From the NCBI GenBank assembly GCA_013286235.1, contig JABDGE010000006.1, positions 1-64,000 on the forward strand: 64,000 bases of DNA. The letters run 5' to 3'. Every line of letters starts with the position of its first letter. Positions within the stretch are counted from its first letter, which is position 1. A program made the translations under genes and the position numbers. Positions 3,344 through 61,078 of the stretch are shown here, piece after piece. The stretch is from Bacteroidota bacterium (GTDB taxonomy: Bacteria > Bacteroidota > Bacteroidia > Sphingobacteriales > Sphingobacteriaceae). Under the pieces are notes generated by a model, which was not told the DNA's origin, made no database searches, and saw nothing but the letters and a program-made list of their open reading frames with translations.

Positions 3344-3438
3344 AGGATTGTTACGGCCCTAATTTAAGTGTTATCTGATGAAAATCGCTAATACTATTCC
3401 TGATAGTGCGAATATAGCTGGTTAAGCCACATAAATGG

Positions 3439-39639: not shown

Positions 39640-42600
39640 TTACAATTTAATAAACTTCTGCTCGCCGACAATACTGTTGTCGGACTTGGTTAAAACCTGG
39701 AGTACGTACGTTCCGGGGGTGAGGTTGCTCACATCGGTTTGCCAGGTTTGCTGGTTGGTGGTGGCCGTTTTTACAACACTGCCGAGGATGCTGGTAATCT
39801 GGATGTTGTAAGCAAGCGCTGGAGAAATGGCTGCTGATTGGCCTGCGGATGTGTTGAACCCGGGGGCAATGCTCAGGTTGAGCGCAGCTTTTGCCGGGTT
39901 GGGATAAACCGAGATACCGGTTTTAACCAGGCTGTTGGTATTGGCCCCATACATGAGCGTGACGACGCTTGAATAGGTGATATTGCCGTTAAGGTCGGTG
40001 ATCTGCAGGCGGTAGCTATCGGCGCCGGTAACCGGGCTGGTATCAAGGAAGCTGTAAGAGCCCTGGCTATTTGACAAAAGTCCGTCGATTACCGTATAGC
40101 TGGCGCCTCCGTCGGTACTTCTTTGGAGGGCGAAGCCGGTATAGCTGGCTTCGTTTTCGGTTACCCAGGCGACTTGTGAACCACCGGTTGCTTTTACAGC
40201 GGTGAAATTAAGCAGGTGAATGCTTAAAGCAGGGTTTTGACGGAGTACTACTACAAATCGGTTTTTGCCGTAGGATGCGGTATCGGTTAAGTCGACATCA
40301 AATACATAGGTAGTATTTGCGCGGATGTCGAGAGAGTCTTTTTTATAACGATCCATCAGCCAAACCCCGTAAATCTGTGGGATGGCATTAAAGTCGGTTC
40401 GTTGAATAGTATATTGACCGCTTGTGTTGACCAATACCCTTAGCGGTATTTCCTCGCTCTTGAGCAGGGGCATCCATTTTACCGAGGTGAAGACACTGTC
40501 GCCGCTTTGTGCGGCGATTGATTGAAGGTTACCGTCGCCCTGCATAAATTTGCTGTCTTCGGCAGGATTGTATTGAGTAACAGAAGTTGGGTTCAACCCG
40601 ATAACCATATCGTCGTTATTCGCCGTATCAGTAACAAGCACTAATCTAAAATAGCTGTTATAGCTGTTGTTGCTGGCCGGCGAAAAGGCGCTCTCGTTTA
40701 CCCTGCGATCCATTAAAAGCGTGGATGGCTGGGAATTTGATTTAGCGGCCTCGGTAAAGGTGAGTGACGGCGAGGCTGCTGTCGCCAGTACAAAAAAGCC
40801 CTGGCCGCTGGATATTATTTTACCTGCGCTGCCGGTGGCCACGCCTGTAGTAGCGTTATAAGTGTCGTAATTTTTTGTAAGCGGGTTAAATATCCAGGTA
40901 GATGGGCTGACATTTGGGCCATAGATTGCAGCAGACGAACTGGAACTGCTGAATTTACTCCAATCGATCGAGCTGGCGTAGGGGTTGCCGACCAAATTAA
41001 AGCCGCGCACGGTGTAGTTGGTAGTTGTTTTGCTGGTTCCAGTACCTGTATGGCCGATATTGGCCGATGATGGCGTGTACCAATTATGCACCACCACGTT
41101 ACCCTGGTTAAGCGTTCCGGTGGTGCTTAAGGTGACAGCTACGTTTGTGGTGTAAGTAACTGTTGTTTCTGTTGCAAGCGCGGCGGAGGCCCGGTTTCCC
41201 CTAAAGAAGACCATAGCGCCGTTACCCACTGGCAAATTATAATTGGTGGAGCCGCCGTTGACGTAGTAATTATAAGCGGGCGAATTGTTGATGGCGCTGA
41301 TGCCCCAGAAATTCCCGCTGGTGAAAGTGGCGTTTGACGGTATTTGATCTTCGCGGAACAAGTAAATCGTAGGATTGCCTGTTTTATCAAAGCCGCCGCC
41401 GGCATTGCCTGTCAGGTACATGCCGGTTTGCAGATAGTTTATGCTATAGATATTATTTGAGCTTACAGTCGCTGTATAAACCGGGGACGATATGAGCCGG
41501 TAACTGCGGTACCCCAAGCCACCGGTAAGGTAACGCTGTACCGATACATTGCCCGAAATGGAATAGCCGCTGGCTATTGCAGCCACACTTGCTGTTTGTG
41601 TTGCGGTGCTGTGCAGTGTTAGCGCGGCCGGTGAGGCGCCAACCACCAGGTTACCTTCGGTTATAGTGAGCACGTTGAAAATGTCGACCGGGCCGCCGCT
41701 GATCGTTACGGTTCCCCCTCCCGTGTTATTGACGGTCATGTTGCCTAACTCGGCCGTCGTGCTGGTGTTTTGGCCGGTATAAGTTTGTACGGGAACGCTT
41801 CCGTTCCAGGTAATGCCCGACGAGTTGTTGCTGCCGTAAATAATACCGTCGCCTGTCGTATTTGCACCGTTCACAATATCGCAGCCAACACTAAGCGTGT
41901 AGCCGTTTAAGCTAAACGTGGCGTTGCTTCCGATGGTTAGCCCATAAACGCTTTCGTTGGCGGTTAACACAGGATATGTCGTTAGGCCCGAAGGAATCAG
42001 CAGGTTTGATGTGCTGGTAAATGGAGGGAGGTGATCCCAGTTGCCTGCTGTTGTAAGGCTTGTGGTGCCTGCTGCGCCGCTCCAGGTATAAGTGATCGCG
42101 TCTCCGGGTGCGGTTACATCGATGGTGGTGGTACAACCGGTTGCGCTGGTTACTGTAAGCACATATATGCCGGCTATAGCCTCGGATGCAGGAACTGTCG
42201 GATTTTGCGAAGAGGAAGTAAAGCCACTGCCGCTTGGGCCTGCCCAGGAGTAGGTTGCGCCGGCTACCGTATTGGCAGTCAGCGCCATGGTGTTACCCGA
42301 GCAGAATGTTCCGGAGCCGGCGCCGTACAGCACATTGACACCCGAAGGGGTTAGCTCAGTATTTGCAACGGCGACATCATCGATTGAGCCATTAAAATTA
42401 GTGGTTGTCGGTGCGTTTGTCCAGCCGGTAAGCGAATCGTAAGCTACGCGCCAATAACCCAGCAGCGAAAATGCGCCATTCATTGCCGGATTTGAGGCAA
42501 CCAAAGCCCCGTCAACGTACAGGTTACTGCCGTTGGTTGTTGAAAAAGTGGCGACCGCGTGGTGCCATTGGCCATTGTTATAGGGGGACGTGGAATTTAT

Positions 42601-44409
42601 GGTTGATTTAACGCCGAGCGGGGCCACGCCGAAATAAAGTTCGCCATTGGTGCCCATATACAATACCCGGTCGACGCTGGCGCTTGCCCCGGTTTGTGAG
42701 CTGCCATAACCAACGAGATAGCCGCCCGCGGTGTTGGTTTCGAACCAAACGCTGATAGAAAATGTTAGTGGCCCTGGCAAAATGCTGGCCGTGGTTGTTG
42801 AAATGTATTGGCTGCTGCTGGCAGAAAAGTTCAAAGCATTGTTGCCGGTATTGTAACGATCGGTGGTTGTGGCCGGGGACCCGTGGGTGACACCGGTATT
42901 ACCACTCCCCGAGAGGTCGGTAACGCTGCCTGCGGTAAACCCGTACGAAAAATAAGCCCCACTGGTTGGAGCGGTTGAGAGAACCGGGTCGGCGCCAACT
43001 GTTACAGTTACAGGAGTGCGCGTCGCACAGGTTACGCCACCTTGTGTGTAATCTACATAATAAGTTGTAGTAACGGTCGGGCTAGGGCTATACGTTGCAC
43101 CGGTAGCCAGGGCCGTGCCGCCTGTTGAAGCCGCATACCAATTGAATGTGCCGCCTGATGGCGCACCGGCCGACGCGGTAAGTGTAGCCGAACCGGCGCC
43201 GCAAATGGTTTGCCCGGGAGCCGTTGGCCCGGTGGGGTCGACCGTAAGGGTTACAGTTGTGTAGCCGGTGCCGGATGCGTTGTGTCCCGCAATGGTATAT
43301 GTGGTGGTAGCCGAAGTTACGGTTGGTGTACCTGAAATTTGCCCGGTGGTGGTGTTAAAGCTCATCCCGGTGGGCAGGGGTATATCGATGGAATAGCCAC
43401 TGGGCGAGAATTCTTCAACGTCGTCGCCGCCGCTATTCGCTATGTAGGTGTTACCATTGGTGTCAAAGCAGGTAGCACGGGGTTGTGTTAGCCCCTGAAC
43501 GTAATTGGTGTATGTCGTAGTTGCCTGGGAAGTGCCTGGGACCAGCTTTACGATCGTCCCGAGGCCTTCGTCGGCAACATAAATGTCGCCGGAAGCATCG
43601 ATGGAAAGGTTGCGAAAATTGGAACCGCTTGCATTGGTGGTAGTATATAACAGGGTAGTTCCGCCGGTGGTAGAGCCGCTGGTTACCGTGTAAACACAAT
43701 TTGCCACGGAGCCGCTTGAATATTCCGACGCATACACCTGGCCGGCACTGTTTACGGTAACGCCATACAGGTCAGTAAAACCTTTTGCATAAACTGTGGC
43801 TGTGGTTGCGCCGGGTGCAATCTTGTAAATAATATCCGAACCCTGGTCGCCGACATATATGTTGCCGGAGGCGTCGATACACATGCCGTCGGGGGTATTC
43901 ATTGCTGTAGGAGAGCCAGTTATGGTAGAAAAAACGCCTGCGGGCGTGATCTTTACCACATCATTGCCAATAGGATTGGCCTCATAAATATTGCCGGAAG
44001 GGTCGACCACGATATCTTTTGGGCCGCCGGCGCCAATATCGGTTGTATAGGTATGCAACAGTGTGCCGGTGGGCGAATACACGTAAACATCGCCGCCTGC
44101 AAAGCTATTGGTTATAATATCGCCGTTTACAGGATCATAAGCTATGCCGTAGGGCTCGCCCGTCGGGTCGGTTGAAAAAGTTGTTAAAGCTCCATTGGCA
44201 ACCGCTCCACCGGTATTGGTTGGCGATAATGTTGTTATGGTTGTATTGACCGTGTAGACATTGGTAGACGGTGAATAGCTGATGACCGGAGCCTGGGCAA
44301 GTGCCAGGTTCATCGAAACTATGAAGGTGCAAGGCAGTAAAAAAAGGCGTAAAAGTGAACTCATGTTTTGAGATTTCGCTAATAAACAGCGCATTTGTAC
44401 GGCACACAC
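39640..44409 (-). CDS. Large T9SS cargo protein: NHL-type propeller, Ig-like, LamG-like, conserved C-terminal cassette, type A sorting domain
   Basis: NHL-like repeats 'DxxGNIYVAD', LamG-like segment, SVYPNPAKAALNLSI...PGTYVLQV...EQKFIKL; start may be internal at MSSLLRLFLLP. Confidence 0.88.
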   Translation of the reverse strand: MCAVQMRCLLAKSQNMSSLLRLFLLPCTFIVSMNLALAQAPVISYSPSTNVYTVNTTITTLSPTNTGGAVANGALTTFSTDPTGEPYGIAYDPVNGDIITNSFAGGDVYVYSPTGTLLHTYTTDIGAGGPKDIVVDPSGNIYEANPIGNDVVKITPAGVFSTITGSPTAMNTPDGMCIDASGNIYVGDQGSDIIYKIAPGATTATVYAKGFTDLYGVTVNSAGQVYASEYSSGSVANCVYTVTSGSTTGGTTLLYTTTNASGSNFRNLSIDASGDIYVADEGLGTIVKLVPGTSQATTTYTNYVQGLTQPRATCFDTNGNTYIANSGGDDVEEFSPSGYSIDIPLPTGMSFNTTTGQISGTPTVTSATTTYTIAGHNASGTGYTTVTLTVDPTGPTAPGQTICGAGSATLTASAGAPSGGTFNWYAASTGGTALATGATYSPSPTVTTTYYVDYTQGGVTCATRTPVTVTVGADPVLSTAPTSGAYFSYGFTAGSVTDLSGSGNTGVTHGSPATTTDRYNTGNNALNFSASSSQYISTTTASILPGPLTFSISVWFETNTAGGYLVGYGSSQTGASASVDRVLYMGTNGELYFGVAPLGVKSTINSTSPYNNGQWHHAVATFSTTNGSNLYVDGALVASNPAMNGAFSLLGYWRVAYDSLTGWTNAPTTTNFNGSIDDVAVANTELTPSGVNVLYGAGSGTFCSGNTMALTANTVAGATYSWAGPSGSGFTSSSQNPTVPASEAIAGIYVLTVTSATGCTTTIDVTAPGDAITYTWSGAAGTTSLTTAGNWDHLPPFTSTSNLLIPSGLTTYPVLTANESVYGLTIGSNATFSLNGYTLSVGCDIVNGANTTGDGIIYGSNNSSGITWNGSVPVQTYTGQNTSTTAELGNMTVNNTGGGTVTISGGPVDIFNVLTITEGNLVVGASPAALTLHSTATQTASVAAIASGYSISGNVSVQRYLTGGLGYRSYRLISSPVYTATVSSNNIYSINYLQTGMYLTGNAGGGFDKTGNPTIYLFREDQIPSNATFTSGNFWGISAINNSPAYNYYVNGGSTNYNLPVGNGAMVFFRGNRASAALATETTVTYTTNVAVTLSTTGTLNQGNVVVHNWYTPSSANIGHTGTGTSKTTTNYTVRGFNLVGNPYASSIDWSKFSSSSSSAAIYGPNVSPSTWIFNPLTKNYDTYNATTGVATGSAGKIISSGQGFFVLATAASPSLTFTEAAKSNSQPSTLLMDRRVNESAFSPASNNSYNSYFRLVLVTDTANNDDMVIGLNPTSVTQYNPAEDSKFMQGDGNLQSIAAQSGDSVFTSVKWMPLLKSEEIPLRVLVNTSGQYTIQRTDFNAIPQIYGVWLMDRYKKDSLDIRANTTYVFDVDLTDTASYGKNRFVVVLRQNPALSIHLLNFTAVKATGGSQVAWVTENEASYTGFALQRSTDGGASYTVIDGLLSNSQGSYSFLDTSPVTGADSYRLQITDLNGNITYSSVVTLMYGANTNSLVKTGISVYPNPAKAALNLSIAPGFNTSAGQSAAISPALAYNIQITSILGSVVKTATTNQQTWQTDVSNLTPGTYVLQVLTKSDNSIVGEQKFIKL

Positions 44410-44574
44410 TCGACGAAGGTTTCATTTTACACATCTCGCACGAATAAAATTTAACGATTAGTGAATTTTTGAGGCTAAGCGAAAATAATCCATCCGCTTG
44501 CCGGGCAACGTTAGCTTACCGGCGGGAGACGCCCAATTAGGGTAACGAATTTGGCAATACCGCTTTCTTCGCCT

Positions 44575-47500
44575 TTATAATTTTATAAAAGTGCCCGATC
44601 CCACGAGGCTCTGGTTGCTGTTATTGACAACCTTTACTGTGTAAGTCCCGGGCATAAGATTGCTGACATCGGTTTGCCAGGTTTGGGTGCTGGTGGTAGT
44701 TTGCCTTACAACGGAGCCAAGGATGTTGGTTATTTGTATGTTATAGGATAAAGCAGCCGTTAAGGCATACTGGTTTGGATTGAAGCCAGGAGCGATATTG
44801 AGGTTAAGTGTAGTGGAGGCGGGGTTTGGATACACTACCAGTCCGGTCTTTACTAGGCTGCTGCTGTTGGCATACATAATCGTAATAACGCTGGAATAAG
44901 TGATGTCGCCGTTAAGGTCGGTGATCTGCAAGCGGTACGAATTGGCGCCGGCCACCGGGCTTGCATCGAGATAATTGTAGGCGCCCTGGCTATTCGACAG
45001 AAGACCGTCGATAACCGTGTACGTAGTACCCCCATCGGTACTTCTCTGCAGCGCGAATTTGGTATAATTGGATTCGTTTTGGGTTACCCAGGCAATTTGT
45101 GAGCCTCCTGCTGCTTTAACAGCCGTGAATTTGAGCAGCCGCACCATCTGGGTAGGATTTTCGCGTATCACCAACTGAAACCGGTTCGTACCGAAACTTG
45201 TGGTGTCTGACAGGTCGATATTGAATCCGTAGCTTGCGTTATTTTTTATGTCGAGGGAGTCTTTTGCATAGCTGTCCAAAAGCCAAATGTCGTAGAGCGG
45301 CGGGATAGCTTCCAGGTCGGTTCTCAGGATCTGGTACTTGCCGCTGGCAGCCGCGGAGCAGCCCATTGGAATTATTAGGCTTGCCGTGCTTTTGGGAAGG
45401 GGTACCCATTTTACCGAAGCGTGGACGTTGTCGCTGCTGATTGTTGAGATGTCCTGCGGTGCACCCGAACCGGCCAGCAATTTAGCATCTATGGCGCTAT
45501 TGAAGGCCATAGTGGCGGCCGGATTAAAGCCGACGACCATGTCGGTTTGATTGATGGCATCGGTTACCATATTCAGCCGGATAAAACTGCCGTAGCCGGT
45601 TTGCGGTTCGGTTCCCGCGGCTACGCGCCGGGCCAGCTCTAAGTTTGTGCTGGTAACCTGGGTGGCCGACTTGGCATTTTCGGTAAAAGTAAGCGCCGAA
45701 GAGTGGTTGTTCGATTCCACGAAAAATCCCTGGCCGCTGGGTATGATCCTCGAGGCTTTGCCGGTTGAAATACCCGTTGTGGCATTGTAGGTATCGTAGT
45801 TGCTGGTTGTCGGATCTAATAGGTAAATCGTGGGGTTCACATTCGGTCCATAAATGGCAGCTGTTGAAACGGTATTACTGAATGTGCTCCAGTCGATGGA
45901 ACTTGCATAGGGATTGCCCACGAGGTTGTAGCCCCGTACGGGAGCGTTCCCCGGGTTGCTGGTTGAGTAAAGCAGGCCCGCGTAACCCGTCCACGACACC
46001 ACTGATATGGTTCCCTGGTTGAGATTGCCGGTCGTGCTAAAGGTTACACTCTCCGGCGCCACGTATGGGGCGACGGTTTTGCTTGGCGATCCGCTTAGGT
46101 GGGTGACCTTGTCGCCGCGGAAATACAGCATATAGCCGCCTCCCTCGTAAACCTTAGCCGATCCGTAGGTGGCATCAGTTGTGGTGATATGACCGGTAGC
46201 TGCAGTGTTTGCTATGTTGGTTACTCCAATGAAATTTCCGCCGATAAATGAATTTCTATTTGGCGTGTACGTCTCGTAAAATAAAAACAAGCTCGGGTTA
46301 CCCGTTGCGGTTGAATAGGACGACGTGCAATCCGTGATAATGGTGCCGGCGCCGAGGTAATTCAAACTTACCGGGTAATTGCCATTTCCGTCGACGCCCT
46401 CATTCACCTGGGATGACATCAGCCGGTAATTGCGCGATACCCATCTGCCGGCGGCGTAAGTGCTGCCGCCTTGCACAAAACGCTGAACCGTTACATTACC
46501 GGTGATGCTGCTGCCTGATGGTATTGCCGCTACCGTAGCCGTACCGGTGGTGTCGGAGTTTAAGGTGATGAGCCCATTGGTAGCCAGTGTACTGCTCCCG
46601 CTCATGGTGAGCGTGCCTGCGCTGGCCAGGTAAAATGCGCCGCTTGCCAAAGTTTTTGTGCCGCCGCCGCTGAAGGCAAGGCCGTAGAATTTTGTGCCGG
46701 TACCGGAGCCGCCGGCTACTGATTGTGTAGTGCCGTTGAAGGCCACCGTCGACCCGGTGAGCGCTACATAGTCGCTTGCATCGTTGGCCAGCGTGTTGGT
46801 ATAATTCCCTGATACGTTCAGTGTTCCTGCTGTAGCCGTTTTGATACCGGAGCCCGAAAAGCTGATATTGGAATAGCTAACGCCCGAAGACAAGCCCGTT
46901 ATGGCGGCCGAAGTGTAAACAGTTTGGGCGCCTGCCGCCGAATATTGAATGGTTGCCCCGGAGTTGTTAAATGTCACTGTGTTTGTGCCTGAAGTTGAGA
47001 GGCCCGACAAAGCGGTCGCATTTGCTAACTGAAGGGTAGCGTTCGTTACCGTAAAGGCGGATGTGCTCCCGGTGACATTTGAAGTTTGCAAGCTGCCGGC
47101 CAGGGCAACTGTACCGCCGGTAATATTAAAAGTAGCATTGCTGTACTTGGAACTTGTATAGGTAGAGGTGAGTGAAATATTGCCCGACAAATTCAGGGTT
47201 GTAACGGATGAGCTAAGTGTTTGCGTATAATTTGAACCGGAAATTGCCGTATTTGCGGTTACGGCTATGCTGCCTGCGCTGATGGTCCCCGTACCCGCTA
47301 ATGTGGCTGTGTATGCATTTGTTGAGTGCGCATCGCTTTGGTAGGCAATTGCCCCGGTTACGTCGAGCACGGCCGGACTTGTTACCGTTATCCCTGCTGC
47401 TGCGCCGCCGCCTGAGCCAAACTCAATACTGCCAACCGCATTTGTGCCGGTGGTAAATACGGGCATGCGTGTTAAAGTATAGCTGGTTGAAACGCCGATG

Positions 47501-48663
47501 CGGGCCATGTCATACGGGCCGGGGACTACTCCGCCGCCCCAGTTGCCCGCGGTTCCCCATGTTGTGCTGGTGCCTCCCTTCCAGTCGTAAACCGAATAGC
47601 AGGAAATGGTGACGCTTGTGCTGCTGTTGCCTGATGCGTTATAGCCGGTAACCGTATAACTCGTTGAAGCGAACGAGACGGTAGGCGTCCCCGAAAACGT
47701 TCCCGTTAATGTGTTGAAACTTAATCCCGTTGGCAAGGTACCGGTAAGCACATAACCACCCAATGGCGGATATTCATAGATGGTATTGCCGCCATAACTT
47801 GCAACATATATAATTCCGCTCGCGCCTACAACAAGGCCTTCGGGATCGGTAACGGTTATGGTATTCAGAAGCGTACCGGATGAGTTGTAAATATCAACCT
47901 TTCCGTTGCCGGAATCGCCCACATAAACATTCCCTGCTGAACTTATGGCTATCGCGTAAGGGCCATTATAGCCGGAACTGAATACAGATTGATACGCGCC
48001 GCTCGAATTGTATTTGGTGACGTTGTTAGTTCCGAAATTAAGCGAATATATGTTGCCCGAAGCATCAACCCTGACATCTGTGGGCTCGCTCACGTTTGAT
48101 GTGATAGTAAGCAGGGGCGAACCGCCCGTATTGGCATATTTCAAGATCTGGCTGGAGTTCGTGTTTGCAACGTACAGGTAACCCGACGCGTCGATCCCAA
48201 TGCCGTAAGGGCCATTTAAGCCGGTGATCAATGTGGTTTTGACGCCTCCACTGGTAATTTTATAGACATCATTTGAGCCGGGATCGGCGACGTAGGAGTT
48301 GCCTGAAGCGTCGATGGCAATACCGTCCGGATGGGTATAACCTGAAGCGAGCGCGCCCACATAGGTTAAGCTTGAGCTGTAATAGGTTACCGTCCCGTTG
48401 GTATATTGAGTGGCGTAAAGGTTGCCGGAGACCGGGTTGATCGCCATGCCGCTGGGGCCCGACACGCTTGTAGAGGAGTAAGCAGAACTGATGGATCCGC
48501 CGGTATTTGTGGGTGTCCAGGCTGTTATGGCCGTGCCCACCACATAGGCATTGCTTGATGGGCTATAACTTATATTCGGGGCTTGCGAAAAAACGCTGTT
48601 TGTCAAAAATGGAAGCAAGCAAATTGCAAAGAACAGGGCACGGCGAAGTACTTTCACTGGCAA
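44575..48663 (-). CDS. Large T9SS cargo protein: NHL-type propeller, repetitive Gly/Ser/Thr region, C-terminal cassette
   Basis: 1362 aa; NHL repeats, VYPNPASTTLNLNI...GTFIKL C-terminus. Confidence 0.88.
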   Translation of the reverse strand: MPVKVLRRALFFAICLLPFLTNSVFSQAPNISYSPSSNAYVVGTAITAWTPTNTGGSISSAYSSTSVSGPSGMAINPVSGNLYATQYTNGTVTYYSSSLTYVGALASGYTHPDGIAIDASGNSYVADPGSNDVYKITSGGVKTTLITGLNGPYGIGIDASGYLYVANTNSSQILKYANTGGSPLLTITSNVSEPTDVRVDASGNIYSLNFGTNNVTKYNSSGAYQSVFSSGYNGPYAIAISSAGNVYVGDSGNGKVDIYNSSGTLLNTITVTDPEGLVVGASGIIYVASYGGNTIYEYPPLGGYVLTGTLPTGLSFNTLTGTFSGTPTVSFASTSYTVTGYNASGNSSTSVTISCYSVYDWKGGTSTTWGTAGNWGGGVVPGPYDMARIGVSTSYTLTRMPVFTTGTNAVGSIEFGSGGGAAAGITVTSPAVLDVTGAIAYQSDAHSTNAYTATLAGTGTISAGSIAVTANTAISGSNYTQTLSSSVTTLNLSGNISLTSTYTSSKYSNATFNITGGTVALAGSLQTSNVTGSTSAFTVTNATLQLANATALSGLSTSGTNTVTFNNSGATIQYSAAGAQTVYTSAAITGLSSGVSYSNISFSGSGIKTATAGTLNVSGNYTNTLANDASDYVALTGSTVAFNGTTQSVAGGSGTGTKFYGLAFSGGGTKTLASGAFYLASAGTLTMSGSSTLATNGLITLNSDTTGTATVAAIPSGSSITGNVTVQRFVQGGSTYAAGRWVSRNYRLMSSQVNEGVDGNGNYPVSLNYLGAGTIITDCTSSYSTATGNPSLFLFYETYTPNRNSFIGGNFIGVTNIANTAATGHITTTDATYGSAKVYEGGGYMLYFRGDKVTHLSGSPSKTVAPYVAPESVTFSTTGNLNQGTISVVSWTGYAGLLYSTSNPGNAPVRGYNLVGNPYASSIDWSTFSNTVSTAAIYGPNVNPTIYLLDPTTSNYDTYNATTGISTGKASRIIPSGQGFFVESNNHSSALTFTENAKSATQVTSTNLELARRVAAGTEPQTGYGSFIRLNMVTDAINQTDMVVGFNPAATMAFNSAIDAKLLAGSGAPQDISTISSDNVHASVKWVPLPKSTASLIIPMGCSAAASGKYQILRTDLEAIPPLYDIWLLDSYAKDSLDIKNNASYGFNIDLSDTTSFGTNRFQLVIRENPTQMVRLLKFTAVKAAGGSQIAWVTQNESNYTKFALQRSTDGGTTYTVIDGLLSNSQGAYNYLDASPVAGANSYRLQITDLNGDITYSSVITIMYANSSSLVKTGLVVYPNPASTTLNLNIAPGFNPNQYALTAALSYNIQITNILGSVVRQTTTSTQTWQTDVSNLMPGTYTVKVVNNSNQSLVGSGTFIKL

Positions 48664-49071
48664 GTAAGTTTTAGTAAATAATTAATCAAATAGTTTAAAT
48701 ACCGTAAAATACTGGTAAACAATAGCTTAAATGGAATGAAATAGCCCCGTTCCATCATTATTTCCCCACTAAAGCACGGTATTGCCACTAATTAACTAAC
48801 AAATGTTAAATCGACAGTTGAGTTGTTACCAACATGTTAACATTGTGATGGCCGAAAAACTAAGTTTTGAGTTATAAAAATAAAAAGATGATTAATTTAT
48901 TATTTCCTAATCATCACAAAGAGTTTGATTTGGGGTGCAGAGAAGAAGTAGTAAAAGACCACATGGGTGTTGCGTTTAAACTCAACTGTAAAGCATATTT
49001 TATCAGCCTTGCTATAGAATAGACAATGTTATTTACTGGTTTTTTAGATTGAGGTGTATATTCTCGTCAAA

Positions 49072-49103
49072 TAAAAAAACCCTAGGTCACAGGTACCTAA
49101 GGC
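49072..49103 (-). terminator. Rho-independent terminator of 49128..50462
   Basis: On minus strand GCCTTAGGTacctgtgACCTAGGGTTTTTTTA. Confidence 0.8.
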
Positions 49104-49127
49104 TTTTCCATGCGCATTTATGGGTAA

Positions 49128-50462
49128 TCAAAGTTTGACGAAGGTAGTGTGGCCGACCACTTTGTTATTGAGGCTGTTTTTTACAGTAACAATATAAGTG
49201 CCCGGTGAAAGGGCTGCTACGTTATCCTGCCAGGTTGAAGCCGACGATGACACCGATTTGATGATCATTCCGGCAGTGTTAACGATGCTGATGTTGTAAA
49301 CTGCGGTTGTGGCCACGGATTCCGGCGCCAGGGATTCGGTGGAAAGGGAGCTTTGAGATGATCCGTTATCAGGCATTATTTGTATATTGATAACGCTGTT
49401 GGTTGGATTCGGATAAATACTCACGTTCCCGGTTATGGTATTTGCGCTGTTGCCGTACATCAGGGTCACTACATTTGAATAGGTAATAGTACCATTAAGG
49501 TCAGTCATCTGTAAGCGGTACTGGTCCGACGCCGCAGGCGGTGTTTTGTCGGTATAGCTGTAACTCCCAAGCCCCGATGATGTAAGGGAGTCGAGGCTGG
49601 TATAGGTTCCGCCGCCGTCACTGCTCCGTTCAACCACAAATGTGGTATAATTTTCTTCGTTCTCGGTTGTCCAGGTTACCTGTGTGGTATTGTTGGCCTT
49701 AGTGGCGTTAAATTCCACTAAGTGTACGGCTAAAGCGGGATTTTGGAAAACGTCGACTTTGAAGCGGTATGAACCGTAGCTGCTGGTGTCGCTTTTGTTG
49801 ATGGTGAACACATAACTTGAATCAGTACGGAGGTTCACGGAATCCTTTGCAAAATTATCTACCAGCCATATTGAGTATATGTTCGGGATGGGGTCGAACT
49901 CGGTTCTCAGGAGGGTTATCGGCCCGCTGTTGGCCGCCTGTACCTTCAGCCTGATCACATCCGGCGTTTGCTTTGGCAGCGGTAAAAAGTTGATCGACAA
50001 CGGCACACCGTCGCTCGAATAACTGGCCAGGCCCTCGGCGGCGCCGATGCCCGGCAGGTACTGGGAGTCATAGTTAAAGTTGTAAACAGGCGTCGTTCCC
50101 GCATTAAATCCGATCACGATGTCATCATAATCGTAGGGGTCGAGATATAATTTTAGGCGAAGCAATTCGCTGACGCTGTCGAACGCGGCAACCCTCGGCC
50201 TCACTAAGCCCGCTATTTTAGAAACCGTAAGGTTAACCGGGGCGGTGTTAACCACCTTGGTGTTCTTTGTGCTGTTCGACGGCAAACTTGCGCGTTGACT
50301 GAAATGGATTTTACCGGCCCTAAGATTTTTATGCGATACCGGACGACTGTTCATGCGGTATACCGCCGGATGATACAGGTGTGAAGTTCTGTTGGTGCGT
50401 GTTTTGCCCGAGGCAGACAACAAACCAAAGATCACAAAGCAGCAGAGTAGTTGTGTTTTCAA
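49128..50462 (-). CDS. T9SS cargo protein consisting mostly of the C-terminal cassette
   Basis: 444 aa; ALAVHLVEFNATKANNTTQVTWTTENEENYTTF..., SIYPNPTNSVINIQI...GHTTFVKL. Confidence 0.85.
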   Translation of the reverse strand: MKTQLLCCFVIFGLLSASGKTRTNRTSHLYHPAVYRMNSRPVSHKNLRAGKIHFSQRASLPSNSTKNTKVVNTAPVNLTVSKIAGLVRPRVAAFDSVSELLRLKLYLDPYDYDDIVIGFNAGTTPVYNFNYDSQYLPGIGAAEGLASYSSDGVPLSINFLPLPKQTPDVIRLKVQAANSGPITLLRTEFDPIPNIYSIWLVDNFAKDSVNLRTDSSYVFTINKSDTSSYGSYRFKVDVFQNPALAVHLVEFNATKANNTTQVTWTTENEENYTTFVVERSSDGGGTYTSLDSLTSSGLGSYSYTDKTPPAASDQYRLQMTDLNGTITYSNVVTLMYGNSANTITGNVSIYPNPTNSVINIQIMPDNGSSQSSLSTESLAPESVATTAVYNISIVNTAGMIIKSVSSSASTWQDNVAALSPGTYIVTVKNSLNNKVVGHTTFVKL

Positions 50463-50778
50463 ATTAAGCCCAATAATTTATCATTTCAGTTAATACCCTG
50501 CAAACAGCGTGCTAAGGGGCTATGAAAGTAATAAAATATGTGGAAAAAAATAAGCAAAATGTTGATAAACCAAATTATTTGCCTTGTTTACTGCAATTAT
50601 TAATTTAATAGAAACATTTTGTCTTTTGAGTTTGCTTTTATTTTAAGGGGAATAGGGAAAACTATCAACGCGATATTATAAATCCGGCAAAAAGATGAAG
50701 GGACATCCACTGAAAGGGGTTAAAAATTTACGATTTGGGGAAATAAATAGTGCTTATAACGAAAGGATACAAACCAAA

Positions 50779-50812
50779 AGCGACCAGTCACCGTGTTGGT
50801 TGCCTGGTCGCT
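50779..50812 (-). terminator. Hairpin terminator downstream of 50832..54656
   Basis: 9-bp stem AGCGACCAG/CTGGTCGCT; minus strand followed by TTTTGGTTTG. Confidence 0.65.
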
Positions 50813-50831
50813 ATCAGGGGTATTGGCTCTG

Positions 50832-53800
50832 TTACAATTTTATGAAGGTGCTGGAACCCACTAAACTGTTATTGCTGCCGTTAATTACTTTGATGACATA
50901 TGTACCCGGCGACAAGTCGCTTACGCTTTGCTGCCAGGTTGGTTGTGTGGTTGAAGCTGTCCTTACTACAGATCCTGTCATGTTTACGATGGTGATATTG
51001 TAACCCGACGAATTGGTCGCGGCTAAAGTTTGACCACTTGTTATGGAACTGGTTTGCAGCGGCGATTGCGAGGTAACTGTAACGGTATTGGTTTGCTTGA
51101 TCGCCAGGTTTAACGTGGTGCTTGCCGGGTTAGGATAAACACTGATATTGCTTGCGGTAATGGTATTGGAGGTATTGGAATACATGATCGTTATGACACT
51201 GGAATAAGAAATAGTGCCATTCAGATCGGTAATTTGCAGACGATAGGAGTTGGCTCCTGTTACGGGGTTTTCATCCAGGTAGCCATATTTGCCAATCCCG
51301 CTTGAGGTCAATCCTTCGAGCGTGGTAAAGGTTGTGCCCCCATCGGTGCTTCTTTGCAAAGTGAAGGTGGTATAATTTTCTTCATTTTCAGTAGTCCATG
51401 CCACCTGTGAGCCGCCGCTTGCCTTTACAGCAGAAAAGCTTAGCAGGTGCACCATCAGGGCCGGGTCCTGGCGGAAAACCAGTTCAAAACGGTTGTCACC
51501 GTAAGTAGTGGTGTCGGCCTCGTTCACATCGAAAACGTAGGTCGTATTATTTTTTATATCGAGGGAATCCTTTTTCAGCTTATCCATCAGCCATATATCA
51601 TACAATTTTGGGATCGCATCCAACTGTGTACGTTGAAAAGTGAAAGTACCGGTGTAGGCTGCAGCAACGCTTAGCCTAACCACGTATGGTTTAAGCCCCG
51701 GTAACGGGAACGAATTGATAGCCAGTTTTACGCTGTCATCGGAAAAACTGGATAAGCCTTCGGCGGCGCCGTTACCTGCAATATATGGCGCGTCCTCGGT
51801 TGCGCTATAGTTGGCTGAAGCCGAAGAATTGAAAATTAACGCAATGTCGTCGTAGTTGACACTGTCGACGCTCAACTTTAAGCGCATCACCTGACTGCCG
51901 GGCGTTTGGGGCGATGGCGCGAGTGCCGCGATGCGCCTGGCCATCAGCAGGGTGCCGCCGGTGCTTAATTGAGTGGGAGCTTTAGCGTTTTCGGTAAATA
52001 TCAATTGCGGGTTGGCGGCATTGGCCTGCACAACGAATCCCTCCCCGCTCATTACATACCGGCTGCCATTGCCGGTTGCGGTCCCACCGGAAGAAGAAGT
52101 CGCCAGGAATGCATCGTATTGTTTGTTAACCGGATCGAACTCGTAAATCGTCGGGTTGATATTTGTACGGGTTATGCCGGTACCTGAATAGGCAGTACAC
52201 CAGTCGATGGTGCATGGGTAAGGATTGCCTACCATGTTATAACCGCGTACGGCATAGTTGGTCCCTGTGCCTGTGCCGGTATAGCCTAAATAAGATGAGC
52301 CTGGGCTGTACCAGTCTTTTACGGTTATGTTAAAAGTGTTTATGGTGCCTGAATTGGTTAGTATGACGTTTTCAGGCGCGATAAAAGGATTTGCTGTCCT
52401 GGATGTCCATTGGGTTGCAGCGCCCCGGAAAAAGAAGAATACGCCGGTCCCAACTGGCAGGCTATAGGTATTACCGTCGCTGCAGGTGATCGTACCAGTA
52501 CTTGTGGAACTGGTGATGTTGGTTATCCCCAAAAAGTTGCCCGATGTAAAAGTATGATTGCTTGGAGTAATGCTTTCGCGGTACACATAAACCGACGGGT
52601 TTCCGGCGCTGGTGCTGCCGCCGGTACAGCCGGTAATAAAGGCATTGGATGCGCTGTTGGCGCCGGTTGTTTGGCCGGCAGTTGTTCCCACGATGTAATT
52701 AAGGCCAAACACATTGTTACCGCTATAGGTGGTATTATAAACCGGCGAAGATATGATGCGGTAGTCGCGCTCTATCCATCGCTTGGTTGTATTGTTGTAC
52801 GTCGTGCTGCCCTGGTAGTACCGTTGAACCGTATAGCTGGCAGTGCCGCCTACGGATCCTGAAGTACCGATTGGGCCGATAGCAGCGCTGCCATAAGCGT
52901 CAGACATAAGCGTGAAGCTGTTCGCCGCCGTGCTGTTGTTGGTGATAGAAGCCTGGTAGCCGCTGGGATAAATAATAGAAGTTGAGCCCAGCACGAATAT
53001 GCCTGCGCCGGTATTGCTTACATAGGCGCCCTGGGCGCTTAAGGTGATTATGCAGGACGAATTGGAAAGACCTGCGGTAAACGTATTGGAGTTTGTTACA
53101 TACGACTGGTAGTTAGCACACGTAATGTTTGTAGTGGAGTCGGCCACCAGTGTGGCGAAGTTGGTAACATATTGCCCGTTGCCGCCGCCGGATGTAAAAT
53201 TAATGGTACTGCCGTTTAGCGTCATCGAACTGGTTGTTACCGCGGGGTTGGCGCCCGCGGCAGCGCCGTTGCTTAAGTACGAGCTTTGTCCTTCAACGGT
53301 ATAGGTAGAACCATGATCCGTCCATGTGCCCAGGTTCAGTATATAACTGCCCGAGGTATTCATGGTGAACGTACAAGTTTTAAACGTACCGCTTGGCTGG
53401 GTAGCAGTCGCCGGCGTCACGTTAAAAATTTTAATATAGTTGTCGTTTCCAAAAGTGAAGGTGGTAGACGTAGCTTTAAGTATTCCATTATTCGCAAAAT
53501 AGGCCATGGAACCCGACATGTTAACGGTGCTTGACGTTGCCGAAAATGTCGAGGTAATGCTGGTGTTGGTAAAGGATTCACTGGTGTTGCCTATTGTAAG
53601 TGTACACGACGATGCAATGGTAAAAGTGCCCGAGTTAGTAATATAAGCGCCTGAGCTCCCGCTGGTGAGGTTCACCGAGCCGCCGGTAAAGGTGAATGCG
53701 CCGGAGTTGCTGATGTAATCGTTAGTGCCGTTCAGGGTAAATGCGCAGGTAGCGCCTGTAACCGTGCCGCCATTGGTGAGTGAGCAATAATTCGCGAAAG

Positions 53801-54656
53801 AAATGCTTGAACTGGCATTGAAGTTCAGCGTGTTGCCCGAATTGACCACCAGGGTTGAGTACTGGTAAAAGGTCGACGATCCGCTTATTGATTCGGTGCC
53901 GGAGCCTGCGAATGTTAAACCGGAAACGCTGTAGTTGCCCACGGTTAAACCGCCGCCAACGGTAAGGGTGTAGCTGCTGCCAACAGTTACCGTTGGGGTC
54001 ACTGCGTTAGCTATAGTGCAGGCGCCGCTTAAAGTTATATTACCATTTTCGGTAAGGGTATTTGAGCTGTTAAGTGCCATGCTTGCTGCAGAGGTAGTCA
54101 GACTGCCCGCTATAGTGGCTGTGCCATTCACAGTGATCGCCCCGGTTAAGGTAGTACCTCCGTTTAATGTGGCAGTAGTGCCGGAAGCCATTGTTAACGA
54201 AGCTGCATTAATCGAACAGGTGCTGTTTGATGTCAGAGTAGAATTTGTATTTAAGGTGATGGCGCTCGTTCCGGTAACATCGCCGGGGCCGTCGAAATTG
54301 AGCGTCGCGGCTGAAGTTGTACCCACCGTAACTGAATTTGTGACCTTTAATGTCATGCCGGATGCAAAAGTTAATGTAACTGTCGCGCCGTTCGCGATAC
54401 TTAAACTGTAAATGGATCCTTGCGGCAGAGCTGCCACTGAAATAGCCGCACTGCCGTTTATGACTACAGCATCATTGGCTTCCAGGTTGCCGGGGTAAGA
54501 AAAATTGGTACCAAAGCCGGTGATATTCCAGTTGGCCGAATTATTCCAGTTGCCGGAGGTGCCCCCCACCCATGTGCAGGTAATTTGTGCTTTTGCGTTA
54601 TTAAAAGCAAAGAGCAAAATAACTAAGGATAAGCAAGTGCGTATTAGTGTTTTCAA
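50832..54656 (-). CDS. Large T9SS cargo protein with repetitive beta-helix-like N-terminal region
   Basis: 1274 aa; TCTWVGGTSGNWNNSANW start, repeated S/T/N-rich strands, SVYPNPASTTLNLAI...GSSTFIKL. Confidence 0.88.
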   Translation of the reverse strand: MKTLIRTCLSLVILLFAFNNAKAQITCTWVGGTSGNWNNSANWNITGFGTNFSYPGNLEANDAVVINGSAAISVAALPQGSIYSLSIANGATVTLTFASGMTLKVTNSVTVGTTSAATLNFDGPGDVTGTSAITLNTNSTLTSNSTCSINAASLTMASGTTATLNGGTTLTGAITVNGTATIAGSLTTSAASMALNSSNTLTENGNITLSGACTIANAVTPTVTVGSSYTLTVGGGLTVGNYSVSGLTFAGSGTESISGSSTFYQYSTLVVNSGNTLNFNASSSISFANYCSLTNGGTVTGATCAFTLNGTNDYISNSGAFTFTGGSVNLTSGSSGAYITNSGTFTIASSCTLTIGNTSESFTNTSITSTFSATSSTVNMSGSMAYFANNGILKATSTTFTFGNDNYIKIFNVTPATATQPSGTFKTCTFTMNTSGSYILNLGTWTDHGSTYTVEGQSSYLSNGAAAGANPAVTTSSMTLNGSTINFTSGGGNGQYVTNFATLVADSTTNITCANYQSYVTNSNTFTAGLSNSSCIITLSAQGAYVSNTGAGIFVLGSTSIIYPSGYQASITNNSTAANSFTLMSDAYGSAAIGPIGTSGSVGGTASYTVQRYYQGSTTYNNTTKRWIERDYRIISSPVYNTTYSGNNVFGLNYIVGTTAGQTTGANSASNAFITGCTGGSTSAGNPSVYVYRESITPSNHTFTSGNFLGITNITSSTSTGTITCSDGNTYSLPVGTGVFFFFRGAATQWTSRTANPFIAPENVILTNSGTINTFNITVKDWYSPGSSYLGYTGTGTGTNYAVRGYNMVGNPYPCTIDWCTAYSGTGITRTNINPTIYEFDPVNKQYDAFLATSSSGGTATGNGSRYVMSGEGFVVQANAANPQLIFTENAKAPTQLSTGGTLLMARRIAALAPSPQTPGSQVMRLKLSVDSVNYDDIALIFNSSASANYSATEDAPYIAGNGAAEGLSSFSDDSVKLAINSFPLPGLKPYVVRLSVAAAYTGTFTFQRTQLDAIPKLYDIWLMDKLKKDSLDIKNNTTYVFDVNEADTTTYGDNRFELVFRQDPALMVHLLSFSAVKASGGSQVAWTTENEENYTTFTLQRSTDGGTTFTTLEGLTSSGIGKYGYLDENPVTGANSYRLQITDLNGTISYSSVITIMYSNTSNTITASNISVYPNPASTTLNLAIKQTNTVTVTSQSPLQTSSITSGQTLAATNSSGYNITIVNMTGSVVRTASTTQPTWQQSVSDLSPGTYVIKVINGSNNSLVGSSTFIKL

Positions 54657-57343: not shown

Positions 57344-60300
57344 ATGAATAAACTTTACGCGGCGTTTTTAATCCAATGTTTACTGCTGTGCTTGTCGATG
57401 GGCGCTTTTGGCCAGCAAATACCCCGTGATGCCGCGAAAGAAAACGACCTGGCAATGTTCAGGTCAAAGGCCCAAAGCCTGTATCAATCCAATCATCAAA
57501 AAGCCCTTGCGCTGGCTAACATCTACCACTGGCCTTTAATAAAAAAGACAAAAAATGGCGGTATCGCCCTATTGGAGGGGGTAAACAGTTTGGGTTTTCC
57601 TATTTACTTAACCACCTTCGATAACATCATCGCCGCTGCCACCACCCAAACCAATACGGTAAATCCGGGCGGATCGCTTGGCCTTACGCTATCAGGCTCG
57701 AGCACCTTCCTTAACAATAAACTGGCCATTTTTGACGGCGGCGAGGTTTATGCACCCCACCAGGAATTTGCCGGCAAAACGATAACGCTTGAGGATAATG
57801 CGGCTTACATCGACCACGCCACCCACGTCGCGGGTACCATGATTGCCAAAGGCGTTTATCCGCCGGCAAAAGGCATGGCCTTCAACGCGGCAACGCTGCA
57901 TTCCTACTATTTTGATAACGACGTTACCAAGATGAGTGCTGCGGCTCCCGATTTGCTGCTGTCCAACCACTCCTACGGCGACGAAGCGGGCTGGAGCTTT
58001 GACGATACCCAAAACGTATGGGATTGGTTTGGCCTGCCCGGCGACACAGTGGATTATAATTTCGGTTTCTACGGCACGCGGACCCAGCAATGGGACCAGA
58101 TTGCGTATGATGCTCCTTATTACCTGATCGTAGAGTCGGCAGGCAATGCGCACGCTTATCCGGGGCCGGCAGTGGGAACGGATTATTACGGCTATGCTAA
58201 TGATACCAGCCAGAACCTGACTGACCTTGGCCCCCGGCCTGCCACTATCAGCAGCAATACCGGCTATGAAACCATCAGCACCACCGGAAATGCAAAAAAC
58301 ATCCTGACAGTCGGGGCGGTGAACCCCCTTCCGTACGGCCCGCCAAACGGGCAGGCGGTTTCGGTTGGCTATTTCAGCAGTTGGGGGCCTACCAATGATG
58401 GGCGCATAAAGCCTGATATCGTAGGCGATGGGGTGAATGTCACCTCCTGCGGCTCGGAAAGCCCCGCGACGTATATTACGCTATCGGGCACTTCGATGTC
58501 ATCGCCAAATGTTACCGGATCATTGTATTTGCTGCAGGAGTACTATGCGGAAAAGAATAACGGCGCTTTTATGCGCGCTGCGACCCTGAAAGGCCTGGCC
58601 TGTCACACCGCGCTGGATGCCGGCAACGTGGGCCCCGACTATGTATATGGCTGGGGTTTGCTCAACATGAAAAGCGCAGCCCAGGCGATAACCAATAACG
58701 GCACAAAAAGCCTGATCAAGGAAAATTCATTGGCGCAGGGGCAAACGCAAACGTTTAACGTGGTGGCATCGGGCGACGGGCCATTGTCGGCCACCATCTC
58801 CTGGACGGATCCGCCGGGAGCGGCAACGGCTGACGGAATTGTGGAAAGCCCGACACCTAAGCTGGTAAACGACCTTGACATCCGGGCGAGCGATGGGACC
58901 ACAACCTTTTATCCCTGGGTTTTGGATCCTTCGAACCCTTCGGCGCCCGCCATGACCGGCGATAATGTACTCGACAACATCGAACAGGTTTTAATACCGG
59001 GCGCGGTGCCGGGGAAGGCTTACACCTTAACCGTGACGCAGAAAGGAACGCTGCAATCGGGTCCGCAGGATTATTCGCTTATCGTTACCGGGGCAGGCGG
59101 AAGCGCTTATTGTGCATCGGCCCCGCTCTCGTCCGCCGACTCAAAAGTAAACAGCTTCAGTCTCTCCAACGTTACCTACACGGCGCCGGCGGGCTGCACA
59201 ACCTATACGGATAATACCGCGCTGACCATCCAATTGCAGCAGGGGCAAACTTATCCCTTGAATCTAACATTGGGCACCTGCGGGGCCAATGTTCCCGAAG
59301 CCGCTAAGGTTTACGTCGACTGGAACGGCGATGGCGTGTTTGAAGCGAATGAACTAGTGGCAACAACGAATGTGATCACCGGTACCGGGAACTATTCTAC
59401 CAATATTACAATCCCAACAACCGTAGTGCCGGGGAATTATAGCCGCTTGCGCGTGGTGTTAGTCGAAACCGGCGACGTTTCGACCATACAGCCCTGCGGC
59501 TCGTACGGCGAGGGTGAGACCCAGGACTACCGGGTGCAGTTTGTTGAAACCACAACGGACGCGGGTATAGTCGCTATAACTTATCCCGATTCCACAGGTA
59601 CATGCCCCGGACCTTCGCAGGTGACAGTAACGATTAAAAATTTTGGCAGCCAGCCCATCAGCAATATACCGGTTAACGTGACCATTACAGCTCCGGGAAA
59701 TATCGTTACCAGTTTGAATCAAACTTATGTGCCTACGCTGCAGCCCCTTGACCAGGAGCAGTTTACCCTGAACGGCACCTTCAATGCCGTAGCGGGCGGC
59801 GTCTACACCATCACCGCGGCAACGGAACTGGCCAATGACCCGATTACCTCCAATAACGCGCAATCCGATACTATCACGGTAAATACGCCGCCTGTGCCTT
59901 CCGGCTTGCTGGCTTACTATTGCACGAACACCAAAAATTACCAGCTTTCGGGTACCGGCGACGGAGAAATGCTCTGGTATCAAAATAATACCGACACTAT
60001 TCCTTTCGCCTTTGGCACGCCCGTGTTATCTACCGAGGCGCCGGTGAACAATACGTATTACGCAGGCCTAAATGATTTCCAGGGCAGCGTTGGCCCGAAT
60101 ACCAAGTATGTATTCGGTGGGGGAGGGTATAACCAATTTACGCCTTATGTGAATGTGAGCACGCGGATACCTATCATCATCAAAAGCGCCAGGATGTACA
60201 TCGGCAATTCGGGGCAAATCACGTTTAACGTTACCAATGCCAATGGCGAGGTGGTATCAAGCGCTACCATAAACGCCATAGCCACGCGCACTACACCAGG

Positions 60301-61078
60301 CCCCGGCGCGCAGCCCGACGATCCCAACGACCCGGGAGTTGTGTATCCGCTTAACCTGTTGCTGCCTGCCGCCGGTGCCTACACCATCAGTACCATTTAC
60401 GATGCCAATGTGACCATATACCGCAGCGATACACTTGTTACGGGGTATCCATTCAGGATCGGGGATGTTTTTAGTATAGAGGGGAACGACGCCACTTCAA
60501 CAACAGACACCGCTTATTACAAAGGTTTTTACTATTATTTGTATGATCTCCAGTTGCAAAGCCCCGGCTGCGCTTCGACAGCCAAAACGGCGGTAACGCT
60601 TTCCACGCCGGTGATCACCCAAAACGGAACGATTTTGAACTCCAGCTTTTCCACGGGTAACCAATGGTATCTTGATGGAAAAGCCATAACCGGCGCAACC
60701 GGCCCAAGTTACACCCCCACGCAAAGCGGGAACTACACAGTGGGTATCACATTAAGCAGCGGCTGCCAGCTCCTGTCGGCCGTTTTTACTGATGTAGTCA
60801 CCACCCCCGGCAATGGCAACAGCGACATCGGCCTGGTGATTTACCCCGTGCCCGCGAGCAGCCAGTTGAATGTTATTTTTGCCGCAGCGTCCAGCGCCAG
60901 TTTGAACATGTCGCTCATAGACGCTACCGGGCGCTATGTTTATTCAGGCCAGCAGACCGTTTCGGCAGGCAATGTGAGCACCGGCATCGATGTAAGCAGT
61001 GTGCCGCCGGGTACCTATGTTTTTAAATTGCTTTTAGGAACGAAAGCGTATTATAATAAGGTGGTGGTGATTAGGTGA
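57344..61078 (+). CDS. T9SS-secreted S8 subtilisin-like serine peptidase with GEVED-like domain
   Basis: DxG LAIFDGGEV, HATHVAGTM, SGTSMSSPNVTG; VYVDWNGDGVFEANELV...GEGETQDYRV; VIYPVPASSQLNVIF sorting domain. Confidence 0.92.
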   Translation: MNKLYAAFLIQCLLLCLSMGAFGQQIPRDAAKENDLAMFRSKAQSLYQSNHQKALALANIYHWPLIKKTKNGGIALLEGVNSLGFPIYLTTFDNIIAAATTQTNTVNPGGSLGLTLSGSSTFLNNKLAIFDGGEVYAPHQEFAGKTITLEDNAAYIDHATHVAGTMIAKGVYPPAKGMAFNAATLHSYYFDNDVTKMSAAAPDLLLSNHSYGDEAGWSFDDTQNVWDWFGLPGDTVDYNFGFYGTRTQQWDQIAYDAPYYLIVESAGNAHAYPGPAVGTDYYGYANDTSQNLTDLGPRPATISSNTGYETISTTGNAKNILTVGAVNPLPYGPPNGQAVSVGYFSSWGPTNDGRIKPDIVGDGVNVTSCGSESPATYITLSGTSMSSPNVTGSLYLLQEYYAEKNNGAFMRAATLKGLACHTALDAGNVGPDYVYGWGLLNMKSAAQAITNNGTKSLIKENSLAQGQTQTFNVVASGDGPLSATISWTDPPGAATADGIVESPTPKLVNDLDIRASDGTTTFYPWVLDPSNPSAPAMTGDNVLDNIEQVLIPGAVPGKAYTLTVTQKGTLQSGPQDYSLIVTGAGGSAYCASAPLSSADSKVNSFSLSNVTYTAPAGCTTYTDNTALTIQLQQGQTYPLNLTLGTCGANVPEAAKVYVDWNGDGVFEANELVATTNVITGTGNYSTNITIPTTVVPGNYSRLRVVLVETGDVSTIQPCGSYGEGETQDYRVQFVETTTDAGIVAITYPDSTGTCPGPSQVTVTIKNFGSQPISNIPVNVTITAPGNIVTSLNQTYVPTLQPLDQEQFTLNGTFNAVAGGVYTITAATELANDPITSNNAQSDTITVNTPPVPSGLLAYYCTNTKNYQLSGTGDGEMLWYQNNTDTIPFAFGTPVLSTEAPVNNTYYAGLNDFQGSVGPNTKYVFGGGGYNQFTPYVNVSTRIPIIIKSARMYIGNSGQITFNVTNANGEVVSSATINAIATRTTPGPGAQPDDPNDPGVVYPLNLLLPAAGAYTISTIYDANVTIYRSDTLVTGYPFRIGDVFSIEGNDATSTTDTAYYKGFYYYLYDLQLQSPGCASTAKTAVTLSTPVITQNGTILNSSFSTGNQWYLDGKAITGATGPSYTPTQSGNYTVGITLSSGCQLLSAVFTDVVTTPGNGNSDIGLVIYPVPASSQLNVIFAAASSASLNMSLIDATGRYVYSGQQTVSAGNVSTGIDVSSVPPGTYVFKLLLGTKAYYNKVVVIR

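Follow-up and report, generated by a model that had tools for sequence, protein, structure and literature searches.

The T9SS of Bacteroidota carries a very large, poorly annotated surface proteome. Among its described substrates, the closest to the proteins reported here are the gliding adhesin RemA (PDB 8gl6, chain D) and its homolog RemZ (Fjoh_0803; PDB 8gl8/8glm/8gln) from F. johnsoniae. RemZ is a trapped substrate in an extended translocon with the SprE/SkpA rim; in the cryo-EM structures of RemA and RemZ only the sorting domain (CTD) is resolved, the region that we term D1b-D2 (see below) is not, and T9SS passenger domains show no tight or specific interaction with the SprA cavity (PMC10994853). 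For secretion, a type A CTD of ~100 aa is enough, also in heterologous fusions (PMC12618676).

The window analyzed here, a stretch of 64,000 nucleotides from contig JABDGE010000006.1 (contig C6 of a 4.3 Mb, 65% complete genome whose nearest named relatives are Mucilaginibacter), contains in its ORF list four minus-strand ORFs, A, B, C and D, between positions 39640 and 54656 (Table 1). The PF18962 domain was found above the Pfam cut-off in all four; the NCBIfam sorting-domain model matches A, B and D above its cut-off and C below it (18 vs 23 bits). The sorting domain (PF18962/TIGR04183) occupies the last ~75–100 aa of each ORF, and SprA is encoded in the same genome (G000:C96, 2464.8 bits against TIGR04189). 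A–D are thus type A T9SS cargo of a Mucilaginibacter-like bacterium, as the initial annotation had proposed. Hydrophobic N-termini are seen in all four, as judged by eye only. Neither a sigma-70 scan nor a Bacteroidota -33/-7 pattern yielded usable evidence of promoters, and in the literature searched on Mucilaginibacter T9SS we found no paper treating these proteins.

Table 1. Features of the array (positions in the window)
Feature	Coordinates	Strand	Remarks
ORF A	39640..44409	-	1589 aa; putative signal peptide, NHL/SGL propeller, Ig_7, laminin-G-like head, D1-D2-D3-type A CTD
A domain D1	40711..41610	-	motifs RxYRLISSPVY ... FFRG ... NLVGNPYASSIDW ... GQGFFV
A domain D2	40228..40695	-	motifs DDMVIGLNP ... 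KDSLDI ... RF
A domain D3, FN3-like	39928..40227	-	
A type A T9SS sorting domain	39643..39927	-	PF18962 E 4.7e-11
ORF B	44575..48663	-	1362 aa; putative signal peptide, NHL propeller head, D1-D2-D3-CTD
B domain D1	45634..46557	-	
B domain D2	45151..45618	-	
B domain D3, FN3-like	44854..45150	-	
B type A T9SS sorting domain	44578..44853	-	PF18962 E 6.7e-11
ORF C	49128..50462	-	444 aa; D2-D3-CTD, without D1
ORF D	50832..54656	-	1274 aa; putative signal peptide, beta-helix-like head (no Pfam match), D1-D2-D3-CTD
D domain D1	51942..52904	-	compact beta domain, AF2 pTM 0.85, without PDB match
D domain D2, Ig-like sandwich	51459..51923	-	
D domain D3, FN3-like	51159..51458	-	
D type A T9SS sorting domain	50835..51158	-	PF18962 E 1.4e-8

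A, B and D have in common a C-terminal block that shows 46–47% identity over its full length and comprises ~650–690 aa with the sorting domain or ~560 aa without it; it is indeed far longer than the sorting signal, and every motif originally listed for the three large proteins is present and aligned in them. Using an alignment of 41 homologs together with AlphaFold, we divided the block into D1 (~320 aa), D2 (~155 aa) and the FN3-like D3 (~100 aa), followed by the type A sorting domain; D1a denotes the first part of D1, and D1b its C-terminal part, which starts at GNPY. ORF C consists only of D2, D3 and the sorting domain (49% identity to D), so that the description of four paralogs is valid for the C-terminal half (D2-D3-CTD), and the whole cassette is restricted to A, B and D. 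Among the paralogs of the array D3 is the best-conserved part (52–73%), above the sorting domain (33–62%). The PF18962/TIGR04183 domain covers none of D1–D3, and no recurrent Pfam or NCBIfam model was found over D1, D2 or D3 in the window, in the paralogs from the same genome or in sets of 41, 37 and 24 members: existing models recurrently match the sorting domain only. The N-terminal parts differ, as had been noted: Pfam identifies an NHL/SGL propeller, Ig_7 and a sub-threshold laminin-G domain in A and an NHL propeller in B, and finds no match in the head of D. The association with the sorting domain extends beyond the array, since PF18962 ends 41/41 homologs (set A3) and 24/24 full-length Mucilaginibacter-type ORFs, and TIGR04183 matches 35/37 distant members. 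The heads of the 24 full-length ORFs include NHL (12), Ig-type He_PIG (8), laminin-G_3 (4) and Ig_7 (4).

The genome contains three further full copies of the block, one on contig C74 and two on contig C32, as well as a lone D2 in a 219-aa lipoprotein-like ORF on contig C20; own-genome matches between full copies and C have E-values of 1e-106 to 1e-158, which excludes chance. In the three full copies (L004, L005 and L006) the CTD is 86–95% identical and the first part of D1 65–76%, as if their C-terminus had been homogenized recently, judging from these identities. The block is a composite of separable domains and not one cassette, because C has the composition D2-D3-CTD, the RemA-type proteins have D1b-D2-CTD without D3, and lipoproteins carry D2 alone; of the single cassette proposed earlier, the shared block itself is real. 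The lipoprotein-like ORFs with a lone D2 (L008, 1399–2058, plus strand; L139) have, behind the lipobox, the N-termini C-HKDES and C-QKDVS, which resemble the signal C-X-K-(D/E)2-X for surface export of lipoproteins in Capnocytophaga (PMC5080379). The possibility that C is a mere truncation of D was rejected, as it has an independent spacer of ~370 bp with stops in all three frames and a syntenic ortholog. Elsewhere, some copies of the cassette or of D2 are broken by stops or frame breaks (L029 at about 6658; G005:C485:14488-16149; G008:C22:14374-14811), which suggests copy decay, with the proviso that assemblies may contain errors.

The array is flanked by a subtilase (57344–61078, plus strand) that has a GEVED domain and a T9SS tail and is found in the same place in two other genomes, G138 and G008; a functional link between the subtilase and the array is possible. 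In G138, a congener, these flanks (subtilase, 70% identity; a 206-aa DUF-like ORF, 70%; a 549-aa NAD-synthetase-like ORF, 87%; names other than that of the subtilase come from reading the sequence alone) surround five cassette genes, and in G008 five or six. Four of the five G138 genes are 1:1 orthologs of D, C, B and A and keep their order (the support for D, C and B is starred, that for A is 96/67); the ortholog of C adjoins that of D and shows 50% identity to C over its full length. Since every gene of the array has its own ortholog, in unchanged order, the array is older than the split. This bears on the view that nothing here is modular and that the shared C-termini merely belong to recent tandem duplicates that are still alike. 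The genes are indeed in tandem, and the three copies on other contigs, 63–79% alike in D1/D2, do indicate recent expansion; nevertheless, we regard this view as extremely improbable, as it is already contradicted by the separate orthologs and by the phylum-wide occurrence of the block, which in many further genera carries other heads. Moreover, heads differ even between orthologous cassettes: the cassette of B is orthologous to that of G138_3 (100/100), yet the head of B is an NHL propeller and those of G138_3 are Ig_7, DUF2341 and laminin-G. Heads and stems have thus moved independently of each other, via head exchange or cassette conversion. BLAST alignments between these heads involve low-complexity sequence, and we gave them no weight.

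We propose that D1-D2-D3 is probably a surface stem that presents exchangeable binding-type heads, with the CTD alone serving as the export signal; of the two roles suggested initially, a surface-presentation module is thus the best reading of the block. Such a protein, composed of a signal peptide, an exchangeable binding-type head, the conserved stem D1-D2-D3 and the CTD, would be exported by Sec, and its CTD alone would be read by SprA/PorV for passage through the outer membrane. Processing of the PorU type would follow between D3 and the CTD and leave the stem on the mature protein, where D1-D2-D3 would hold the head off the cell surface; exchange of heads would leave export and anchoring undisturbed. 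Our data show the domain order, the paralogy, the co-occurrence with SprA, the decoupling of heads from stems and the predicted folds; we infer the presentation function, the cleavage site, the surface location and an adhesive role. This explanation is supported by PF18962 in all four ORFs and in their homologs, SprA in the same genome and its co-occurrence with the block in the survey below, the diverse binding-type heads, the decoupling of heads from stems, the predicted all-beta stem with Ig/FN3-array matches for D2-D3-CTD, the sufficiency of ~100-aa CTDs, the lack of tight or specific binding of passenger domains to the SprA cavity, and the presence of D1b-D2 ahead of the CTD in RemA and RemZ.

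We surveyed 297 Bacteroidota genomes with a six-sequence cassette profile, a D1b-D2 profile and the SprA model, which match 165, 99 and 230 genomes, respectively. SprA is present in 165/165 genomes with a match to the cassette profile vs 65/132 without (Fisher p values for such counts ignore relatedness), and in 99/99 with D1b-D2; the survey of T9SS genomes suggested earlier thus places D1b-D2 exclusively in SprA-positive ones. Many of the 165 genomes match by D3 alone, so that D1b-D2 gives the cleaner count. In part, the co-occurrence follows from the CTD and from phylogeny, as the listed SprA-negative genomes belong mostly to one family. The complete succession D1-D2-D3 occurs mainly in Mucilaginibacter, where the cultured M. 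flavidus is among the carriers of such genes, and in Sphingobacteriaceae; outside these groups D1b-D2 often runs directly into the CTD. SprA is found in all near-complete genomes of the genus, and its presence there does not discriminate. Four near-complete Mucilaginibacter congeners (G001, G002, G016 and G024) possess SprA and no copy of the block, which is therefore dispensable for T9SS. Plasmids yielded one weak match, on a Hymenobacter plasmid.

These data also bear on the suggestion that the block is an extended determinant of T9SS export or processing, read by the translocon or by a protease. We consider it very unlikely, in spite of the strict co-occurrence with SprA, the position of the block next to the CTD and the T9SS-tailed subtilase that flanks the array in three genomes: the ~100-aa type A CTDs export heterologous fusions (PMC12618676), passenger domains make no specific contact with SprA (PMC10994853), 65 sampled genomes and the four congeners have SprA without the block, D2 occurs on lipoproteins without a CTD, and no catalytic residues are conserved. 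The "processing module" of the initial annotation finds no support. An enzyme or protease reading of D1–D3 was likewise rejected, as a conservation scan of these domains revealed no conserved His/Cys columns and no catalytic triad.

The AlphaFold model of the ORF D block (pLDDT 83.4, pTM 0.76) was searched with Foldseek against the PDB; all its matches had low TM-scores and were to arrays of the Ig/FN3 type or to other beta proteins of several domains. D1 folded alone is predicted, from 41 sequences, to be a compact all-beta domain (pLDDT 81, pTM 0.85) and had no match in the PDB (best E 0.045, TM 0.12). Because the whole block leads to Ig/FN3 arrays and D1 to nothing in the PDB, we read D2, D3 and the CTD as predicted generic Ig/FN3-like sandwiches and D1 as a domain of another kind; the alternative that the block would prove to be only generic beta-sandwich repeats is thus half right: it fits D2, D3 and the CTD, whereas D1 matches nothing solved. 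In a tandem Ig/FN3 array, such as those of gp130, the IL-23 receptor and contactins, all stem domains are sandwiches, which applies to D2, D3 and the CTD and fails for D1. The likeness to these arrays of the block, in a part that we read as D2-D3-CTD, amounts to TM 0.1–0.2 over the query at 8–13% identity, so that they share no more than the sandwich architecture. For the predicted D1 model, absence of a PDB match is no proof of a new fold. The sole good fold match of D1 is A0A8D9C8P8 in BFVD, from an uncultured marine phage (E 2.6e-12, TM 0.51, 299 columns, 21% identity), itself a predicted model whose name, "putative hemin binding protein", is an unverified annotation.

The invariant residues are R630 and N811 in D1 and D955, D1025 and R1056 in D2; near-invariant polar residues of D1 comprise R630, R633, R744, N807, N811, E889 and K892. 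For a passive spacer, D1 is large and its conservation higher than necessary, and it may itself bind something; in addition, hardly any head is left for the short ORF C to present. The main live rival to the stem is D1 as a binding domain itself: D1, perhaps with D2, could be the working part, a conserved surface binder of a glycan, of the cell's own surface polymer or of the gliding machinery, to which the head adds specificity. This is a reasonable, though rather doubtful, alternative. It would agree with the near-invariant polar residues, with D1 being one compact domain without a solved relative, with C being almost headless, and with D1b-D2 being shared with RemZ and with RemA, a mobile surface lectin in gliding. 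On the other hand, C persists as a conserved gene without D1, we saw no conserved His/Cys that would point to a catalytic or metal site, and in the literature searched we found no paper that maps the lectin activity of RemA to D1b-D2.

Phage records contain related genes. In a 634,780-bp record labeled "uncultured phage" (LR745206.1; L134), an ORF at 3086–4912 (plus strand) encodes a 608-aa protein with a signal-peptide-like start, D1b-D2 (E 1.9e-30) and a CTD-like tail that receives no Pfam call; the next ORFs (6505–8183) encode PKD and a D3-like stretch, possibly frameshifted, and the neighbors include RNase H and an RF-1-domain gene. The terminase model PF17289 found no match in this huge-phage record, whose phage nature therefore rests on its label. 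Three IMG/VR contigs (211, 41 and 60 kb) also match D1b-D2 (L137, 3954–5957; L136, 4356–6389; L138, 5001–5255; all plus strand), and the proteins of L137 and L136 (667 and 677 aa) have a similar layout. On phage contigs, genes for T9SS-type cargo seem to be rare, though they recur; in the literature searched we found no title or abstract that deals with T9SS cargo encoded by phages. It is an improbable idea that D1 is an unrecognized fold that defines phylum-wide T9SS passenger stems, is more than a spacer in that it contacts the secretion or surface machinery (e.g. the SprE/SkpA rim), and was acquired by phages whose own T9SS cargo is exported from their Bacteroidota hosts.

A stem present in about a third of the sampled genomes, and in RemA and RemZ, yet without a Pfam or NCBIfam model, means that each protein has several hundred residues without annotation. 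A model of D1-D2 would annotate many "T9SS sorting domain-containing" proteins together and offers a concrete, solvable target, and the array illustrates the exchange of surface heads over a fixed stem. We conclude that the stem is a real, phylum-wide and unmodeled part of T9SS cargo that includes one domain whose predicted fold has no match in the PDB. It is not categorically new, since type A T9SS cargo is what these proteins are and the core of the stem occurs in RemA and RemZ. Searching the PDB with the sequence of ORF D alone gave nothing useful, so that a profile was needed, and the whole-D1 profile found no match; the D1b-D2 profile identified RemA (8gl6_D, E 1.5e-23, residues 1093–1345 of 1436) and RemZ (8gl8_D, E 1.3e-19, residues 761–1020 of 1114). 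The label "undescribed" is hence apt as far as D1–D3 lack a Pfam or NCBIfam model and inapt for D1b-D2, which, going by these profile matches, is already part of the known substrates RemA and RemZ, though unnamed in any library. These two are distant in sequence, D1a is undetected in them by sequence, and their D1b-D2 abuts the CTD, whereas D3 intervenes in A, B and D. Like A, B and D, RemA and RemZ are large type A cargo proteins in which D1b-D2 precedes the CTD and the N-terminal part differs.
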